DNA of 64,000 nt, taken from NCBI GenBank assembly GCA_002030015.1, contig LQBH01000070.1:1-64000 (forward strand). The letters run 5' to 3'. Positions 45,490-56,166 of the stretch are shown piece by piece (position 1 is the stretch's first letter; every line of letters begins with the position of its first letter). The notes beneath the pieces are model-generated. The model was not told where the DNA came from, searched no databases, and saw nothing but the letters and a program-made list of their open reading frames with translations. The position numbers and the translations under genes were made by a program. This stretch comes from a delta proteobacterium MLS_D (GTDB lineage Bacteria > Desulfobacterota > Syntrophia > Syntrophales > UBA2210).

Positions 45490-46167
45490 TCACGCGGACG
45501 TCGTGGCCGCGATAAAGTCCCGCACCTTGCGCGGATCCTTGCCGCCGTTCTCATTTTCCACGCCGCTTATGACGTCGACGGCGAAAGGCCTGACCGTCGC
45601 GACTGCGCGGGCCGCGTTTTCGGCGTTCAGTCCCCCCGCGAGAATGACGGGAATGCGAAGACCATCGCGAATTGCGCGGGCCATGGTCCAATCGATGCTG
45701 TGACCTGTTCCGGCGACGCGCTTCTCGCTGACTGAGTCCAGAAGCAGTGCGTCCGCTCCCGCCGATTCGAACAGTTTCCCCGCCTCAAGCGGATCAATAT
45801 CCGTGCCGAGGCACCGTCCCGTTTCCACGGAGAAGCGCAGGGCCTTTATGGCCGGAATGCGCAGGGCGGACAGTTCGGCGATGATGTCACGGGTCACGGC
45901 GGGGGACTCATTGCCGTGAAGCTGGACCGCCTGCGGTTTCAGGTATTCCGCGAGCGACAGCACGGTGCCGGGATCTCCTCCCACGACGATAACCCGGTAA
46001 ACGAAGGGAGGGACCAGGTCCATGAGCCGCATAGCCTCGTCCCTGTCAAGGTTCCAGGGCACATCGGCGGGATACTCGGTGACGAATCCCAGGGCGTGAG
46101 CACCCGCCTCGACGCAGAGCCGCACTTCCTCGCCGGTCCTCATGCCGCATATTTTTACCCGTGTCAT
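45490..46167 (-). CDS. trpF: Phosphoribosylanthranilate isomerase
   Basis: 225 residues. KICGMRTGEEVRLCVEAGA contains the catalytic Cys; QLHGNESPAV, DALLLDSV and VILAGGLNAENA complete the (alpha/beta)8 active site. It isomerises phosphoribosylanthranilate in tryptophan synthesis. The start at 46167 overlaps the trpC stop as ATGA, favoured over an upstream GTG at 46176. It is the last gene of the trpBADCF operon. Confidence 0.95.
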   Translation of the reverse strand: MTRVKICGMRTGEEVRLCVEAGAHALGFVTEYPADVPWNLDRDEAMRLMDLVPPFVYRVIVVGGDPGTVLSLAEYLKPQAVQLHGNESPAVTRDIIAELSALRIPAIKALRFSVETGRCLGTDIDPLEAGKLFESAGADALLLDSVSEKRVAGTGHSIDWTMARAIRDGLRIPVILAGGLNAENAARAVATVRPFAVDVISGVENENGGKDPRKVRDFIAATTSA

Positions 46168-46883
46168 GGCGGCCACCCCACGTCTATGATGCTTTTCAAA
46201 AAGGCACCAGGGTCGCTCGATTGCAGCACCGCCGTCCCCACGAGAACCGCGTCCGCCCCGCTTTTCCCGGCGCGCCGCACGTCGTCGGGACCGGCGATGG
46301 CGCTTTCGCTCACCAGGATACGGCCGTCCCCGTTTCCGGCGGACAGTTTTTCCGTCCTCCCCACATCGCCGTCATCCACTTCAAAGATGGTGATATTCCG
46401 GTTATTTATACCCAGGAGGGTCCCCGGCAGTTGCCTGATACGTTCCAGTTCTTCCGGCGTGTGGGCCTCGACCAGCGTTTCCAGTTCTCGGCGCGCGGCC
46501 TCGTCTATAAGTTGCGCCAGCCTGTCTTTATCGAGTATGGCGGCGATGAGCAGAACCGCCGAGGAGCCGCAGTCGGCCGATTCTTCAATCTGTCGTTTTG
46601 TCGTGACAAAGTCCTTGTGCAGGATGGGCAATTCCACGGCGTTCGCGATGGTCTTGAGCAGTCCGATGGATCCGCCGAAATGCTCCGGCTCCGTTACGAC
46701 GCTGATGCCCGCGACCTGAAGCGCCGCCATGGAACGGGCCAGCTCGACGGGATCGCGCCCGCGCAACAGGTCCCCTTCCTTGTCGGAACGAACCTTGATT
46801 TCCGCGATGACGGGGAACAGGCCTTCAGCCTGTCTGCGCCGTATCGAGGCTGCCAGGGATGGTCGTTGCGTGTCCATCATCAT
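46164..46883 (-). CDS. trpC: Indole-3-glycerol-phosphate synthase
   Basis: 239 residues, slightly short. PVIAEIKVRSDKEGDLL replaces the usual IAEIKRxSPSKG; the catalytic Lys of EIK is kept. LHKDFVTTKRQI, GINNRNI and ILVSESAIAG follow in normal order. The first of three tandem ATGs (46883) overlaps the trpD stop as ATGA. It closes the indole ring from carboxyphenylamino-deoxyribulose phosphate. Confidence 0.95.
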   Translation of the reverse strand: MMMDTQRPSLAASIRRRQAEGLFPVIAEIKVRSDKEGDLLRGRDPVELARSMAALQVAGISVVTEPEHFGGSIGLLKTIANAVELPILHKDFVTTKRQIEESADCGSSAVLLIAAILDKDRLAQLIDEAARRELETLVEAHTPEELERIRQLPGTLLGINNRNITIFEVDDGDVGRTEKLSAGNGDGRILVSESAIAGPDDVRRAGKSGADAVLVGTAVLQSSDPGAFLKSIIDVGWPP

Positions 46884-48217
46884 ACCGATTTCGACGCCTC
46901 GATCAGCTCGTCGAGCTTGCGCATGGCCGCCCCCGAATCGATAAGAGACCGCGACAGGTCGATACCCTCCCGTATGCTGGTCGCCTTGCCGCTGACATAG
47001 AGCGTGGCGGCGTTGTTCAAGAGCAGAAAATCTCTTCGAGGGCCCTTTTCGGCGCCCGAGAAAATATCTCGTATGACCCCGGCGTTGAATTCCGGCGATC
47101 CCCCGGCTATATCCCTGATGGTGCAACGCTTCAGGCCGAAGTCCTCGGGGACGACCTCATAATATTTAATGGCGCCGTTTGTGATTTCGGCGATGGAAGT
47201 CTTGCCGATCAGCGAAATTTCGTCAAGACCGTCCAGGCCGTGGGCGATGATGACATGATTGAAATCCATTTCCGCAACCACGCCCGCCATCATGTTCACC
47301 AGCTCGGGCCGGTACACGCCGATGGTATGGTTCCGGGCGCCCGCCGGGTTGATCAGGGGCCCGATGATGGTGAAAAAGATGGTCTTGACGCCGAGCTGGT
47401 TTTCCGGGCCGAACACCTTGAGCATAACGGGATGGAAATTCGGAGCGTAAATAAAGCTGATCCCGACGGTCTCGATGAGACGAGCCGCCTGTTCCGGCTG
47501 CAGGTCGATGACGACGCCCAGCGCCTCCAGCACGTCGGCGCTTCCCGAGGGTGACGAGATGGAGCGGCTGCCGTGCTTGGCGACGGGAATCCCCGCGGCC
47601 GCCGCCAGGACGGCGTTCGCGGAACTCACGTTGAACGTGGTCAGCCCGCCGCCGGTCCCGCAGGTGTCGGTGAGATCGCCCTCCACGGCCACCTTCAGGG
47701 GCACGCAGTTGTTTCGCATGGCCTGGGCGATATAGGCGACTTCCTTGATGCTCGGTCCCTTGCTGAGAAGTCCCACCAGGAACCCGGCAATCTGCACGTC
47801 TGAAAGCTGTCCCGCGCTGATGGCGTCGATGACGGAATAAATTTCGCTTCGCTCCAGGTCAAAATTTTCCGTGAGTTTCGAAAGGATGGGCGTGATGGTT
47901 TTCTTGCCGTTTTCGACGATCAGGGCGTCGCCTTCGGAACCCATGAATCCGGCGGGGGCGTCTTCGTCCAGCGCGGAGAACTTGTATGTTTTAAACGCCA
48001 TCATCGTCCGGGTGCCGAGAACGCCCTCCATGTTCTGCATTTTCTCCGTCACCACCTCGGAAAGCATTTCGTATTCACGGACCTGGATCTTGGCCATCAG
48101 GTCGTACTCGCCGGTTATGGAAAGCACTTCCACCACCTCGGCGATGGCCCCGAGCTGGTTGGCAAGATTGGGAATCCTTCCCTGCTCGGCCTTGAAAAGT
48201 ACCAGTGCTGTTATCAT
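46880..48217 (-). CDS. trpD: Anthranilate phosphoribosyltransferase with N-terminal Lrp/AsnC-type ligand-binding domain
   Basis: 445 residues, about 100 more than TrpD usually has. Residues 1-80 match an AsnC/Lrp effector-binding (RAM/ACT-like) domain: [20 protein letters not shown] at the start, EVLSITGEYDLMAKIQVRE at 30-48, then TEKMQNMEGVLGTRTMMAF. There is no DNA-binding helix-turn-helix. Residues about 107-445 are TrpD: DTCGTGGGLTTFNVSSANA and KHGSRSISSPSGSADVLEALG. The catalytic KHGNR reads KHGSR, a mild departure. The start is fixed by an ATGA overlap with trpA, so the extra domain is part of the protein. The fusion suggests feedback control by an amino acid, plausibly tryptophan. Confidence 0.92.
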   Translation of the reverse strand: MITALVLFKAEQGRIPNLANQLGAIAEVVEVLSITGEYDLMAKIQVREYEMLSEVVTEKMQNMEGVLGTRTMMAFKTYKFSALDEDAPAGFMGSEGDALIVENGKKTITPILSKLTENFDLERSEIYSVIDAISAGQLSDVQIAGFLVGLLSKGPSIKEVAYIAQAMRNNCVPLKVAVEGDLTDTCGTGGGLTTFNVSSANAVLAAAAGIPVAKHGSRSISSPSGSADVLEALGVVIDLQPEQAARLIETVGISFIYAPNFHPVMLKVFGPENQLGVKTIFFTIIGPLINPAGARNHTIGVYRPELVNMMAGVVAEMDFNHVIIAHGLDGLDEISLIGKTSIAEITNGAIKYYEVVPEDFGLKRCTIRDIAGGSPEFNAGVIRDIFSGAEKGPRRDFLLLNNAATLYVSGKATSIREGIDLSRSLIDSGAAMRKLDELIEASKSV

Positions 48218-49056
48218 CCGTCCATCCTCCCTTTTTTTCGTGAATTTGTGGTCGCGGTTTCCCCCATCGCCGTCTTAAACGCGCGTACTCGTTCGGCCAG
48301 GCGCTCCGCCAGGTCCGGGCTGTCACGGTATTCCTCTATGATGTTTTCAAAAGTGCTGCCGATAACGACGCCGTCGACGAAGGGCGCGAGCATTGCCGCG
48401 TCGTCGGGCGTCGAGACGCCGAACCCGACGCACAGGGGCAATTCCGACGCGGCGCGGAGAGTCGCCGCCTGTTTCCGGATTCCTTCGGGATCGAGGCCGC
48501 CGCTGCCAGTGACGCCGGCTTTCGATATCAGGTAAATAAACCCGGACGCGTTCTTCACGATGGCGCGCATCCGTTCCGGCGGGGTTGTCGGAGCGACCAG
48601 CCGTATCAGCGCGAAATCGTTTCCGTCCGGCAGGTACTCGTTCATCTCGGCCGCTTCTTCCGGCGGAAGGTCCACCACCAGCATCCCGTCGGCCCCGGCC
48701 GCCGGCGCGTCACGGAAGAAAGCCTCCAGTCCATAGGCGAAAATGGGATTGTAGTAACTGAAGAGAACAACAGGGACGTCGGTTTTTTTTCGAAGTGCCC
48801 CGGTTATCGCGATAGCATTGGCGAGGCTCGAGCCGCCTTTCAGGGCCCGCAGCCCCCCGCGCTGAATAACCGGCCCGTCCGCCGTGGGGTCGGAAAAGGG
48901 AACGCCCAGTTCAAGCACGTCGAGACCGGCATCGCACATGGCCGCCAGTAATTCGAGCGACCGGTCGAATGACGGATCGCCGGCGAGAACGAAGCCGACC
49001 AGTGCTTTTTCTCCTTTTTCCCTGAGTTCGGCGAATCGTTTATCGATCCTGTTCAT
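48214..49056 (-). CDS. trpA: Tryptophan synthase alpha chain
   Basis: 280 residues from the ATG overlapping the trpB stop. [18 protein letters not shown] carries the catalytic Glu49 and Asp60 at exactly the canonical numbers. [27 protein letters not shown] (loop 6) and [13 protein letters not shown] follow. It cleaves indoleglycerol phosphate and passes indole to TrpB. Its stop overlaps the trpD start. Confidence 0.97.
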
Positions 49057-50303
49057 TTCACGGTTCCTTTCTCGGCCGCGGCGCGGCGCGCTATGATATC
49101 CAGGTCCTTGTCGCCACGACCGGAAAGATTTACCACGATGATTGTTTCCGGCGGCAAAGCAGGGGCCTCCTTCACGCACCAGGCGACGGCGTGGGCGCTT
49201 TCCAGGGCCGGAATAATGCCTTCGAGCCGGGAAAGCAGGTGAAAGGCCTCGAGCGCTTCCTCGTCGTCGATAGAGGCGTAGCGTGCCCGCCCGCTGTCCT
49301 TCAGCATCGCGTGTTCCGGCCCGACGCCGGGATAATCGAGCCCGGCGGAAATGGAATGGGCCTCCCTGATCTGGCCGTCCCGTTCCTGGAGCACGTAGGA
49401 CTTCGATCCGTGGAGCACGCCGGTTGTTCCCGCTCCCAGCGTCGCGGCATGTCTCCCGGACATGATGCTTTCGCCCGCCGCTTCCACGCCGACCAGTTCC
49501 ACCGGGTCGTCGAGAAAGGGATAAAAAAGGCCCAGGGCGTTGCTGCCGCCGCCCACGCAGGCCACCAGCACGTCCGGTTGTCGGCCCGGGTTCGCGCGCG
49601 CCTGTTCCTTCACTTCCTCGCCTATGATCACCTGGAAATCGCGCACCATCATGGGATAGGGATGGGGACCGGCGACGGAGCCGATAACGTAATGCGTGTC
49701 AGTGACGGCGCTCACCCAGTACCGCATGGCCTCGTTCATGGCGTCCTTCAAGGTGCCGGCGCCCGACTCGACGGGAATAACCTCGGCGCCCAGAAGCTCC
49801 ATGCGATGCACGTTGGGGGCCTGCCGGTCGATGTCCTCCACGCCCATGAACACTCTGCACTCCATGCCGAAGAGAGCGGCAGCCGTGGCCGTGGCGACGC
49901 CGTGCTGTCCCGCCCCCGTCTCGGCGATCAGCTTTTTTTTGCCCATGCGGCGCGCCAGGAGTCCCTGCCCGATGGTGTTGTTGATTTTGTGGGCGCCGGT
50001 ATGCGCCAGGTCCTCCCGCTTCAGGTAAATGCGCGCGCCGCCGAGGTGTTCCGTCAGCCGCCGCGCAAAAAAGAGCGGCGTCGGTCGTCCCACGTAATCG
50101 ACCAGGAGATCATGAAGTTCGCGCCGAAAGGACGGTTCTTTCGATATGCGGCCGTAGGCCTCTTCCAGTTCCAGCAGCGCGGGCATGAGCGTTTCAGCCA
50201 CGTACCGGCCGCCGTAGGGACCGAAATGCCCGTGCCGGTCGGGTACGGGAACCCGCTTTTGCCTTGTCGCCTGAGTATCAGAATGTATGCCGTGCCGTTC
50301 CAT
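49053..50303 (-). CDS. trpB: Tryptophan synthase beta chain
   Basis: 416 residues, TrpB1 type. [18 protein letters not shown] begins the conserved part; the PLP Lys is K106 in [12 protein letters not shown]; the phosphate loop is VGGGSNALG; and [12 protein letters not shown] and [14 protein letters not shown] are intact. It makes Trp from indole and serine. First structural gene of the operon, preceded by the leader and attenuator. Confidence 0.97.
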
Positions 50304-50320: not shown

Positions 50321-50354
50321 AAAAAAACCGTGAACGCTTGCGCCGCTCACGGTT
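50321..50354 (-). terminator. trp attenuator terminator
   Basis: On the minus strand: AACCGTGAGCG, loop GCGCAAG, CGTTCACGGTT and then seven T. The 11-bp stem includes one G-U pair. It lies between the leader peptide stop and the trpB start (18 nt before it). With the Trp-rich leader it forms a classical transcription attenuator. I could not resolve the antiterminator pairing by eye. Confidence 0.9.
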
Positions 50355-50382
50355 CCACTTGTTACGAAATTGTTGTCGGTAA

Positions 50383-50487
50383 TCAGTGACAGGAAGACGC
50401 GCCGGCGGGTCCGTATGCGGGAGTGCGCCACCACCACTGAAGCATATCGCCGAAGAAATCTTTCCTGTTCACCGTTGCCGTGTCCAT
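50383..50487 (-). CDS. trpL: trp operon leader peptide
   Basis: A 34-residue frame that reads [16 protein letters not shown], then Gln, three consecutive Trp codons (TGGTGGTGG, 50428-50436) and an Ala/Gly/Pro-rich tail ending CH. AGAGAGAAAC lies just before the ATG. Three adjacent Trp codons in a short frame upstream of trpB, followed by a terminator hairpin, are diagnostic of ribosome-mediated attenuation: stalling at low charged tRNA-Trp should prevent terminator formation. Confidence 0.95.
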
Positions 50488-50510
50488 AATGTTTCTCTCT
50501 ATAGAAACAC

Positions 50511-50540
50511 CGTATAGTCGAAAGCGGGAGGCGCTGTCAA
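50511..50540 (-). promoter_or_regulatory. trp operon promoter (sigma-70 type)
   Basis: On the minus strand a consensus -35 TTGACA (50540-50535), an 18-nt spacer and a -10-like TATACG (50516-50511) lie just upstream of the trpL start. Transcription should start near 50504. A GTTTCT...AGAAAC inverted repeat at 50491-50508 falls at the presumed start site and could be an operator, but no TrpR gene is in the window. Confidence 0.75.
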
Positions 50541-50573: not shown

Positions 50574-51613
50574 TCACGGTACGACGTCAAGCATGCGCCG
50601 GCGCCAGTCACGCTCCCAGTCGGACATTGACCGGCCGTCACCGGTGACGACTTTTTGAAAGGTTTTAAGCGATTGTTCAGCCAGGATGGGGTTCCACGCT
50701 TCGAACAGTCCGCCGTCGTTCGAGCCGCCGATCGGCGTGTTTGCGGACAATTCGTGCAGGGCGGCCGCGAGGTCTGTCTTGAGAGTCGCTATGTACTTGT
50801 CGAGAAAGGTGTCGTTCATTCCATGTCGGCCGGCAGTATGGGCCAGGTCATACACGATGCCCCAGGCGACGGCGTAATCACCGGAGCTGAAGGGTTCGCC
50901 GTAGGACCGCGAAAGCACGCCGATCGCGGAAAAGCGGTAGTTGTTCCTGATCATGTTTTGAAGTTCGCGAAGACGCGGGAGATTGGGGATCCCCGTTACG
51001 AGCCGTCCGTTCACGAGTCGAGCCGACTCCATGTAGGTGGCCAGTCCTTCGTTCAGCCACAGGGGCAGACCGATGGGGTTCCGTTCTGCGGGGGAGGAGT
51101 TGTTACCGGTACGCGCGCCTGAAACCCGGCAGTCGAGATCAGCCCGCTGGTGAAGACCCTCGTGGAGGAGCAGGGGCGTAATGTTATCGAATGTCGTTTC
51201 GTCGAGCAGTACATGGACGGCCGCGGGAGCGACCGGCGAGTAGAAGGCCCTGACGGATGGCGGAAAACCGAGGCTTTCCGCGACGAGAGCAAACCGTTTC
51301 CACGTTCCGTAAACATAGATGGTGGATTTTTTTCTTCTTCGGAGGTGTCGATGTCCAGGAGCCTGTCATAGGCGTCGGCCGCCTGTTCCATCAGGTCGGC
51401 GACCGGGACGACGCGGGTTTGTCCGGCGTCGCTGTAAACCACGTAGCGGGGTGTGCGCAGTGAACAGCGTTGCATGTCCGGGATGACGCGGTCCATTGCC
51501 TCCCTGTACCGTCCGTCCCACGAGGGCCCGGCGCATGAAACCAGGAAGAGGATAAGTGCGAACGAAACCGCCAGTTCCGCGAGACGACCGCTGTAAGGTG
51601 ATGAAGCCGACAT
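50574..51613 (-). pseudogene. Gluzincin-like lipoprotein (HExxH), frameshifted at a 7-base A-run
   Basis: A lipoprotein signal (MSASSPYSGRL, then LILFLVSCAG) precedes a protease-like domain split over two frames. The first frame ends its conserved part at TSEEEK; a second frame resumes with STIYVYGTWKRFALVAESLG and carries LLLHEGLHQRADL (HExxH) and LWLNEGLATYME (third-ligand Glu) to the end. The break lies at a run of seven A on the coding strand (51327-51333): one extra A would restore the frame. Either a sequencing error, a real mutation, or slippage. Resembles DUF1570/peptidase MA-like proteins. Promoter and leader of trp lie just downstream. Confidence 0.75.
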
Positions 51614-51739: not shown

Positions 51740-54700
51740 TTAGAATTCGAACCGGAGTCCCGCCTGCCAGTTATGGGCGTCGAAGTCGCTCCGGTATTCA
51801 CCTTCATAGGAGACGAAGAGGGACAATGATTCCTGCACGGTCGTGGTCACGCCCACTCCGAGGAACGCGCTGTCCCGTTTCGCGGTCACGCCGCTTACGG
51901 TGAACGCCCCGGGCGCCCCGGCGAAGCGCGCCGTGACCTGCTGGTCGCGGTCGCCGAACTCGTGGCCCCACTGGAGACTCATCTCGGGCGTGATTCCCAC
52001 GTCCTTGCTTACCCGGAAGAGCCTGTTCACGCGGAACCCGAGTTTGCTTACCAGGGAATCGGCGCTCGATGTGTCGACCGCCAGGTTGAGGCCGCCGGCG
52101 CCGGTTTCGGTGAATCCTTCCTCGCGGTGATAGCCGTACTGTAACGATGCCGTGGGAATGACGTTCCAGGTTCCCATCACCATGGTGTAGCCGCCGCCGA
52201 CATACATCGCGTAATCCCGTCCCCGGTAGTCGCCCCGGGCGGTCAGGCCGAACGTGGGCAGGTGGCGGTAGGACAGATAATCGTTCACCGCGTACATGAG
52301 GGACCCGTCGACGTAGAAGGCTGATTCATTCCAGGTTCCGTAGATGCCGAACTGAGAGGAATCACCGTTGATTTCACCGCGCCTGTCGCTCGTTTCCGCC
52401 GAAGCCCGTCCGAGTCCGAGTGTCACACCCATCGTCAAGCGGTCCGAGACGGCCTTGTCGAGGCCGACGTTCAGGCCCGTGGAATCGTAGTTGTATCCCC
52501 GGTAATTGATGTCGCCGTCCTGGTCGGCCTTGATGTAGGAACCCCTGACCCAGGGCGACCAGCCGGACTGCCGCGTCGCCGGAACGGCGGCTAGCGCCGG
52601 TCCCGCACCGGTAATGCGGTTCGAGGCAATTGCGCGGAGCGCGCCGAGCCGGCTGTTTATGTTCGAGGTGAACCCGGCCCTGGACAGTCCGCTCATGGCT
52701 GCCCCCGCCGTGAATGACTCGGGCGACATCTGGTTGATGGCGTCGCTAAGCGCCGCCGCCGTGGGCAACGTATCGAGGATGAGTATGACGTCAGCAAGGC
52801 TGCCCGCGGCGCCCGTATCGATAAGATTCATCAGGTAGGCGCTGACGGCCGACTGGTTGGAGGTGAGACCCGAACCGGCCAGGGCCGCCTCGTATGACTG
52901 GCGGTGCGTGTCGAGAATGAGTGAATTGGCGACGGAGACATCGTCAATGGTAAACGAAAGAACCGTCGAATCCGCTGTCGCCTCGTCGAAGCCCGCACCC
53001 GCCAGGGTTCCCGCCGTCAGGACCGTGTGCGATTCGCCGTCCTGTATAATGTCAACTGGAACGACGAGTACCGTCCCGCCGTCTATCGTGGCCGTGCCTC
53101 CCACGGTCAGGCTGTCCGAGGCCCCGCTGCCCATGCCTACAGCAAGCGTGGCCCCGGCGTTATTCGTGTAATCTCCGGCGACGGTTGATACCGCCATGTT
53201 TCCGCCAAGATAAAGCGTCCCGCTGTTGACGGCGTTGCCGGCCGCGGTAAAACCACTGCCGACTTCCAGGACGGCGTCGGTGGAAACATCGACGTCATTG
53301 AACCAGTTTGTCTCGCCGTTCAGGAACGTCTCGCCGCCCACGGCGTTGACGGTCCAGTAGTTCTCCTCGCCGACGTCGATCTCGCCGCTGTCGTCGATAT
53401 CGTTAAATCCCCAGATACTGCCGTCATAGGTAAAACTGAAGCCCGCGTCCGGGGTGCCGGGAACAGCGACGCCGTCCCCATCGGCGGCCAGGCCGAAATT
53501 GACCGTGGCGATGCTCGGGTCGTCGACGCTCCGTTTCGACAGGTTCAGCATGTCGCCGGTCATCTGCGCTCCGTTCATAACATTCAGCGTGTTGTTGACA
53601 ACAGCAAAACCGCTGTCGGGGCAGCCGAAAATAACCGCCGCGGACTGTTCGCCGCCCGAGGCGTTAATAATGCCGCTCTGATGGATGGTGTTGTTGTCCT
53701 CCCGCATCCAGATCCCCGCGGAATAACCGGTGTTGCTGTCGTCGGTGAGCACGGCGTTGATCTCGCCGGTGTTGACCACCGTGGAGCCGTAGCCGGTGCG
53801 GATGCCGTAAACAACGCCGTTGTTGCAGTCCGTGGGGTCTCCTGAAGTAAGAGTGCCGGTGACATCGATGGTGCCGGTATTTGTGACGGTTGATCCGGAG
53901 CAGGTCCTCATACCGTAGACTCCGGTGTGCATACTGAAATTCTCACCGGCGGTCAGCTCTCCGGCCACGGTGATGGCGCCGCTGTTGGCGAGGACGGAAT
54001 CATATCCTCCTCTGATACCATAAACACCGGCATGCTTTCTGATGCCGGCTTCCGAGGAGAGACTGCCGCTGACATCGACGGTTCCTTCATTGGCGATTTC
54101 AGAATCATACCCCGTCCTGATACCGTAGACGCCGGCTGTTCTGCCGATGACACCTCCGGCGGTGAGTTCACCGACCGCGCCGACGGAACCGGTATTGTCT
54201 ATAATGGCGTATTCACCCGCCCGTATGCCGAACACGCCGGAATTGTAAGCGATATTACCACCGGCGGTCAGATCACCGGACACGGTAATTACGCCCGCGT
54301 TGGTAATTCCCGAATCGGCCGGTGGAGGCGTGGGATCAACCTCCAAAACCATGAACCCTAAAGGTATTGCACTTTCTGACGAACCGACCCGTATACCATA
54401 CACGCCGGAATTGTAATCGATATTACCACCGGCGGTCAGGGCGCCGCTGATGTCGATAACACCCTGGTTGTCGATTGAAGAGTATTCACTCGCTCGAATG
54501 CCATAGACCCCGGCATTATAATCAATATAATCACCGGCTTTCACATCACCGGACACGTCGACGGTTCCGTAATTACGGAACATGAATCCATCGTTCGCCC
54601 CCTTGATACCGAAAAAGCCGCTCTGAGTGCCAAGATGGTCGCCTGACGTTATGGAGCCACCGGCTTCCATGAGCCCCCGGTTGGTAATGTCACTGTAGTT

Positions 54701-56166
54701 CCCCGTCCATACGGCGTGAGCCGCTGAACGGTTGTAATTACTGTCGGCGAAGTCCCAGTTTCCGAAGGCGCTCAGCACCCCGCCCGTTTCGTTAATAATG
54801 ACGTTGGGGTTGTCCCAGTTATCGGCACAGCCGGCCCGAATGGCGGCCGCAACACTCTCATCGCTTAATGAACCGGTTGAAACAGTGATGGATGATTCCA
54901 CGGTCCCGCTGTTGGTGATGCTGTCGCCGAGATCTCCGGTGAAGATACCGAAGCTCTTGCCAACGATGGAAGAGGTGTCGTCTTCCCCTTCGCTGTAGAC
55001 GTAGGTTTCAATGAGGCCGGAATTGACCACTGTATCCGGTCCTCGGCCACCCTGTATGCCGAAAGCGACTGTATAATCTGAGCCCTCGGCTTCTGCCAGA
55101 ATGCTGCCGTAATTAGTGACAACCGAATCTCCTGCATCAGCAACAGGCGTATCATCTTCACCAATCTGAATACCCATGGCGACAGACATTCCGTTATGGG
55201 AAAGAGCAAAGGCCTCGATCTCACCATAATTATCGATGGTAAATTCTTTTTTGTAATCGGGGGGATCATCCCATCCCAGCTGAATTCCTTTAGCCACCGT
55301 ATGACCGTCAGCCTCAGCCCCAACGCTGATAAGGCCCTCGTTGATAATGGTGCCTCCGCCAGAATACTTGATGCCCTGACTCAGTGCGCTCCCAGTATCG
55401 CTTACAGCACGGGAAAGGATGTTTCCTGTATTCGTCACGTCGATTTCGGGATAATGACTGACCTTTACCCCTATTGATCTCGCATAGCCGGTCTCGTTGT
55501 ACGCGCTGACGTCGATGATGCCGTTGTTGATGACCTCTCCCTGTCCTTCGTGACCCATCTGGATGCCGACGGCACGTGCATACGGGCTGCTGCCACAAGC
55601 CGAGCCACCGGAAACTGCCTCGGCGTAAACTTCAATAAGGCCGTTGTTGATGATAATATTATCGGTTCCTTCGTAACCGGTCTGAATGCCGAATGCCCGT
55701 GCCTCGTAATCAACGCCTGTCTGGACGGCGGAAACGGAAATCGCGCCCTCATTGGTAATGGTATTGCCGTACAAGGCGATAATGCCTTTGGCGTTGATGT
55801 CGGTAGTCGTTCCCAGGGCTGTGACGTTGATCGCGCCCCCTCTTCAACGGTGACCACGTTGTCGTTCAGGAACCAGTCGGCATTGTAGCCTGGATCAGCC
55901 GGATCGGTGATGATGGCACCGTCCGGGAACAGGATGCCGTTTCCCTTGACGCCGATGGTAACTTCCTCGTCCGTTGTGGCGACCGTCACCGTGCCGCCGT
56001 CAGCCACGGTGAGCGTACCGCCGGCCGGCAGTTCCACGGGGCCGTCGACGGCGGTGTCGATCACGACGTCGACCAACTGGGCGTTACCGACCGGTGCCGA
56101 AAAGGACATCAGGAAAAAGGTTAAAAGCCCGATGCCTGTGAAACAGAGTATTTTTTTCGTTTTCAT
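51740..56166 (-). pseudogene. Large autotransporter with repetitive passenger, frameshifted at a G-run
   Basis: About 1,475 residues in total. The N-terminal frame (from 56166) has a signal peptide (MKTKKILCFTGIGLLTFF, cleaved near GNAQ) and reaches VTVEEG. The second frame continues GAINVTALGTTTDINAKG and remains open to 51740. One extra G at the five-G run (55836-55840) would join them exactly. The passenger holds about eight diverged 38-residue units of the form GVYGIR...NxGxIDVSGxLTAGxN, typical of beta-helix autotransporters. The last 280 residues form an autotransporter beta-barrel (MSGLSRAGFTSNIN, WVRGSYIKADQDGD, terminal ...AGLRFEF). Likely surface exposed; a role in adhesion is inference. 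Confidence 0.85.

Follow-up and report, generated by a model that had tools for sequence, protein, structure and literature searches.

The trpBA-trpDCF operon of the delta proteobacterium MLS_D (Syntrophales), in which a sensor domain is fused to trpD, is most likely controlled by a ribosome-mediated attenuator, probably placed behind a TrpR-type operator; we put the probability of this reading at roughly 0.9. Comparison with related genomes makes a strong case for the predicted mechanism, which is a known one, whereas the setting of this putative trp attenuator is unusual. The analysis covers a stretch of 64,000 nucleotides of contig LQBH01000070.1, hereafter called the window, from a genome of 2.5 Mb in 70 contigs (G000), together with genomes of the same order and phylum.

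Organization of the leader and the operon

The leader and the genes behind it comprise the following features.

50540-50535, minus strand: -35 box TTGACA, read from the sequence and kept in the relatives G003, G004 and G002
50516-50511, minus strand: -10 box TATACG, read from the sequence (TATATG in G003, TATACA in G004)
50490..50509, over the expected start site: operator-like palindrome TGTTTCTATAGAGAGAAACA, a candidate TrpR-family site from exact matches in its own genome and in relatives and co-occurrence with PF01371
50487-50383, minus strand: leader peptide ORF of 34 codons plus stop, with homologues of the same length in G003 and G004
50436-50428, minus strand: Trp control codons TGG-TGG-TGG, found as WWW in seven trpB-type leaders (the window included) and three before fused trpD
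50392..50407, minus strand: segment 2, the 5' strand of the antiterminator, within the leader ORF (ribosome-position fold; pair counts in 11 leaders)
50341..50356, minus strand: segment 3, the 3' strand of the antiterminator and also the 5' strand of the terminator (ribosome-position fold; pair counts)
50321..50354, minus strand: intrinsic terminator, 11-bp stem and T7 (sequence, fold and pair counts)
49053..50303, minus strand: trpB, TIGR00263 over cut-off, the only canonical copy found in the genome
48214..49065, minus strand: trpA, PF00290 and TIGR00262 over cut-off
46880..48217, minus strand: trpD fused to an N-terminal Lrp/AsnC ligand-binding domain, PF01037, PF02885 and PF00591, with TIGR01245 over cut-off
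46164..47126, minus strand: trpC, divergent copy, PF00218, below the NCBIfam cut-offs
45490..46176, minus strand: trpF, divergent copy, PF00697, below the NCBIfam cut-offs

The frame of trpC stays open further upstream than its likely start.

An earlier note on this DNA had described TTGACA-N18-TATACG on the minus strand, a 34-codon frame with three consecutive Trp codons and an 11-bp hairpin followed by T7 before trpB, and direct reading recovers all of them. The spacer between the two boxes is 18 nt, the frame runs from the ATG at 50487 to the TGA at 50385-50383, and the terminator stem AACCGTGAGCG / CGTTCACGGTT occupies 50354-50344 / 50336-50326, with T7 at 50327-50321 and a hairpin folding energy of -18.1 kcal/mol. 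The hairpin lies close upstream of trpB as described, with a gap of 17 nt, and not the 18 nt given there, between the end of T7 (50321) and the trpB ATG (50303). Two elements of an attenuator are present, namely a short, translated-looking ORF that carries tandem Trp codons behind a promoter, and an intrinsic terminator ahead of the first structural gene. The leader has no match at the gathering score in Rfam (release 15).

Elsewhere in the window, a long repetitive frame of 1344 amino acids with an autotransporter-like look (51740-55774, minus strand) is overlapped by a separate frame with a signal-peptide-like start (55471-56166, minus strand); the two are possibly one gene broken by a frameshift.

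Conservation and folding of the leader

The recurrence of Trp-rich leaders in relatives, on which the earlier note had made its reading depend, was found ahead of both trpB and the fused trpD: WWW leaders precede trpB in six relatives and directly precede fused trpD in three more. The leaders of G003 and G004 align with that of the window without insertions or deletions and with WWW unchanged, and the terminators of the WWW leaders in Syntrophales sit at a constant distance past the Trp codons. The leader frame is kept in four of the five genomes searched within the genus itself, but in G002 two of the three Trp codons are gone. In that genome the promoter, the terminator and the 2:3 pairing of the trpB leader remain around the single Trp codon left, and its fused trpD shows an apparent frame-disrupting deletion.

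The alternative antiterminator fold that the note had likewise called for is present. With a ribosome modelled on the third Trp codon of the window leader and the downstream RNA freed, segments 2 and 3 pair (-19.8 kcal/mol), and with the ribosome at the stop codon only the terminator remains (-18.5 kcal/mol). Across the 11 leaders of trpB and fused trpD, the 2:3 antiterminator pairs in 88.1% of cells, compared with 32-48% when the strands are slid, and the 3:4 terminator pairs in 91.6% of cells, with nine pairs altered on both sides. The folds and pair counts indicate an antiterminator that excludes the terminator, is exposed with the ribosome at the Trp codons and is covered with the ribosome at the stop. 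Whenever segment 4 is included, the terminator appears in the best fold of the window leader, and at equilibrium it prevails as soon as segment 4 has emerged. The antiterminator would therefore have to exist as a kinetic state, which is the usual situation in attenuators.

The whole 191-nt leader is modestly more stable than its shuffles (z -1.7), and the energy of the window's own 2:3 duplex does not exceed that of shuffled sequence. We therefore rejected an antiterminator signal from the window sequence alone, and the case for attenuation rests on the comparison with relatives. On that comparison, the note's proposal of ribosome-mediated attenuation is supported by the conserved control codons, the mutually exclusive 2:3 and 3:4 helices and the ribosome-position folds.

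The computations show the anatomy, its conservation, the two alternative helices and the joint occurrence of motif and repressor gene. In the mechanism that we infer from these, ribosome stalling, termination and repressor binding would each play a part. When charged tRNA-Trp is scarce, the ribosome would stall on the three Trp codons, leaving segment 2, just past them, free to pair with segment 3; this pairing would block the terminator, and the operon would be transcribed. When tryptophan is plentiful, the ribosome would reach the stop codon and cover segment 2, so that the terminator immediately ahead of trpB could form from segments 3 and 4. A TrpR-family repressor would bind the palindrome that overlies the start site.

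The trpE leaders of Syntrophales

The leaders upstream of trpE form an attenuator class with the same logic as the window leader, including WWW, a segment 2 inside the ORF, where it codes for EGFVRR or similar, and the choice between 2:3 and 3:4. An alignment of 25 trpE leaders allows the antiterminator in 90.3% of cells (47-62% in slid controls) and the terminator in 91.1%. A covariance model of the trpE leader (R1) matches in 106 of 155 genomes of the order at E <= 7e-15 and, in a phylum-wide sample of 395 genomes, in 57 at E <= 1e-8; matches with E above about 1e-8 were left uncounted because R1 also scores terminator pairs.

Most trpE leaders carry a second terminator-like hairpin approximately 20-35 nt further on, whereas the window leader has one hairpin only. 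Base pairing between the 3' arm of the first hairpin and the 5' arm of the second would couple the two, and such 4:5 pairing is possible in 94.6% of cells. We do not claim coupling of the tandem terminators, as the covariation was mostly not above shuffles and the leaders' own 4:5 pairs were hardly better than swapped ones within a family.

The trpE leader of the source genome itself gives an R1 match of 85 nt (contig C68, 35787-35871), compared with the usual length of about 155. Aligned with its counterparts in G003 and G004, it shows a gap of about 66 nt in which segments 2 and 3 and the end of the leader ORF are lost; the gap is either a real deletion or an assembly fault. Owing to this gap, the leader frame now reads through the second terminator-like hairpin.

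A candidate operator and TrpR-family genes

The palindrome follows the motif TGTTTCT-N6-AGAAACA, and the window copy lies just past the -10 box. At trpE of G003 and G004 it contains TTGACA (TGTTTCTATTGACAGAAACA), and the copy at trpE of the source genome has one mismatch. Within one mismatch, the source genome holds only three sites, one at the window leader, one at trpE and one ahead of a TrpB-like gene. Of the 155 genomes of the order, 19 carry a TrpR-family gene (PF01371) and 15 the exact palindrome; 13 have both (Fisher p 9e-13, uncorrected for common ancestry). All 17 exact sites in these 13 genomes lie upstream of trpE, trpB with its leader, trpR or the TrpB-like gene. Sixteen of them were placed by coordinates. 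Since G002 has its trpE on a different contig, its site on C45 was placed by adjacency to the aroC-like gene that in the source genome precedes trpE.

The palindrome stands immediately ahead of several trpR genes, as expected under self-regulation. No site within two mismatches was found in the 2.5 kb examined at trpR of the source genome, nor any site in the stretch examined at trpR of G003, and G010 has neither trpR nor the palindrome. The TrpR-family protein of the source genome (C35:98987-99202) scores 47 bits against a PF01371 gathering cut-off of 27 and falls below the NCBI equivalog TIGR01321 (40.2 vs 67.25 bits); because the proteins of this group pass the Pfam threshold and miss that of NCBI, they are called here TrpR-family and not TrpR. 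Because 13 of the 15 genomes with exact sites carry such a gene, repression probably adds to attenuation, as a predicted second layer of control.

The TrpB-like gene, which encodes a PLP enzyme (near 76700 on contig C35 of the source genome, and in G016), is preceded by the palindrome, a short Trp-containing frame and a terminator-like hairpin, suggesting a third unit of the same regulon. The frame includes FFWWR in G016 and two separate Trp codons in the source genome. In G017 (C43) and G016 (C75), the palindrome lies immediately ahead of a trpR-family gene whose direct neighbour downstream is another trpB, more distant and about 56% identical. This arrangement resembles the trpR-trpB layout known in Chlamydia.

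Two trp operons and a sensor-fused TrpD

Contig C68 of the source genome carries trpE-G-D-C-F, followed by a prephenate dehydrogenase gene and preceded by a WWW leader of its own, so that trpD, trpC and trpF are duplicated and the window operon is partly redundant. The earlier note had proposed separate control for the synthase and late genes on the one hand and for the first pathway step on the other. In that form this is not supported, since trpEGDCF with its own WWW leader and the same palindrome, at one mismatch, shares these signals with the window operon, and both operons would be expected to answer to tryptophan. Owing to the gap of about 66 nt in the trpE attenuator, their responses may still differ.

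Most relatives have trpE and trpB on the same contig, separated by a few kilobases, and a complete reading of G012 gives trpEGDCFBA in one run. The gene arrangement of the window recurs in G003, G004, G010 and G018, and in G019 up to the contig end. In G052, Syntrophus PtaU1.Bin005 and MAG SpSt-1140, a WWW leader of the same kind directly precedes the fused trpD; trpC and trpF come next, and trpBA is missing from the unit. The original unit may have been leader-trpD-C-F, with trpBA having moved in behind the leader.

As for the fused TrpD itself, an Lrp/AsnC ligand-binding domain (PF01037) lies N-terminal to the TrpD domains. Its homology to TrpD is certain: the TrpD part matches TIGR01245 over the full length of the domain at 356.5 bits (cut-off 199.05), and the best solved relatives are all annotated as anthranilate phosphoribosyltransferases. 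In addition to the extra domain, it differs from canonical TrpD in the missing Asp of GTGGD and in the changes of KHGN to KHGS and of RRELG to ENQLG. In each of 15 fusion proteins compared, GTGGD is without its Asp, KHGS replaces KHGN, and PENQLG or a close variant stands in place of the canonical PRRELG/PRREIG, whereas the canonical motifs are intact in the TrpD of the trpE operon in the source genome. Residues of the KHGN and RRELG motifs contact anthranilate in solved enzymes. With these motifs altered, a changed substrate is possible for the fused enzyme. The fusion is dispersed, occurring in Syntrophales, Desulfatitalea, other Desulfobacterales MAGs, a Desulfofervidaceae MAG, Propionibacterium MAGs and Raineyella, and six of eight fusion-bearing genomes encode a second TrpD over the cut-off.

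Tentatively, and with more doubt than confidence, the fused TrpD with its own TrpC and TrpF might constitute a separate, Trp-attenuated side branch, in which an amino acid bound to the Lrp/AsnC domain would switch the enzyme, a modified anthranilate might be the substrate, and trpBA would have been captured in the lineage of the window. The only canonical tryptophan synthase would then be expressed together with the side branch. In open-access papers, we found nothing relevant on trpD of Syntrophus aciditrophicus or on sensor-TrpD fusions.

Alternative explanations

Repression alone might matter today, the leader being the relic of an attenuator and the hairpin a plain partial terminator. The operator-like palindrome, the control codons lost in G002 and the gap in the trpE attenuator of the source genome would all suit such a history, but G000, G003, G004 and more distant leaders retain the reading frame, WWW and both helices, and we regard it as improbable. 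Less probable still is an action of the leader peptide or of the terminated small RNA in trans, instead of or besides attenuation. A role of this kind is documented for peTrpL, the trp leader peptide of Sinorhizobium meliloti (PMC7298713); however, apart from the Trp codons and segment 2, the peptide considered here shows little conservation from genus to genus, which fits a role in cis.

Finally, the ORF could have arisen by chance ahead of the ordinary terminator of the upstream gene. As the next frame upstream lies on the same strand and ends at 50574, the hairpin could terminate its transcript, and the fold of the whole leader departs only modestly from shuffles. Against this, many genomes have WWW leaders ahead of trpE, trpB and fused trpD, with the alternative helices conserved, and the conservation found already contradicts a chance origin, to which we assign hardly any probability. 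Ribosome-mediated attenuation, probably combined with repression, is the reading that we prefer.

Comparison with known trp regulation

The predicted control resembles that of the trp operon of Escherichia coli (TrpR operator and trpL) as generally known: both have an operator or operator-like palindrome at the promoter, a tandem-Trp leader, a segment shared between antiterminator and terminator, and structural genes just past the terminator. The window differs in that the leader stands ahead of trpB in a second operon that is partly redundant, has three adjacent Trp codons and holds segment 2 inside the leader ORF, and the palindrome differs in sequence from the E. coli operator. The genome comparison points to an E. 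coli-like pairing of a repressor site with a trp attenuator in Syntrophales. It also supplies many natural leader variants, two of them apparently broken, for the study of attenuator evolution, and exposes a dispersed fusion of TrpD with an amino-acid sensor.

In gammaproteobacteria, TrpR regulons have sites upstream of trpE and trpR, and TrpR is described as absent from the other classes among 196 genomes (PMC5343134). Syntrophales resemble them in the TrpR-family protein and in the sites at trpE and trpR. Unlike the gammaproteobacterial case (PMC5343134), a minority of Syntrophales carries the TrpR-family protein, the motif is TGTTTCT-N6-AGAAACA, and sites also stand before the TrpB-like gene. 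The kind of switch is already known, whereas the controlled operon, with its sensor-fused enzyme and duplicated steps, and the motif of the repressor site look new.
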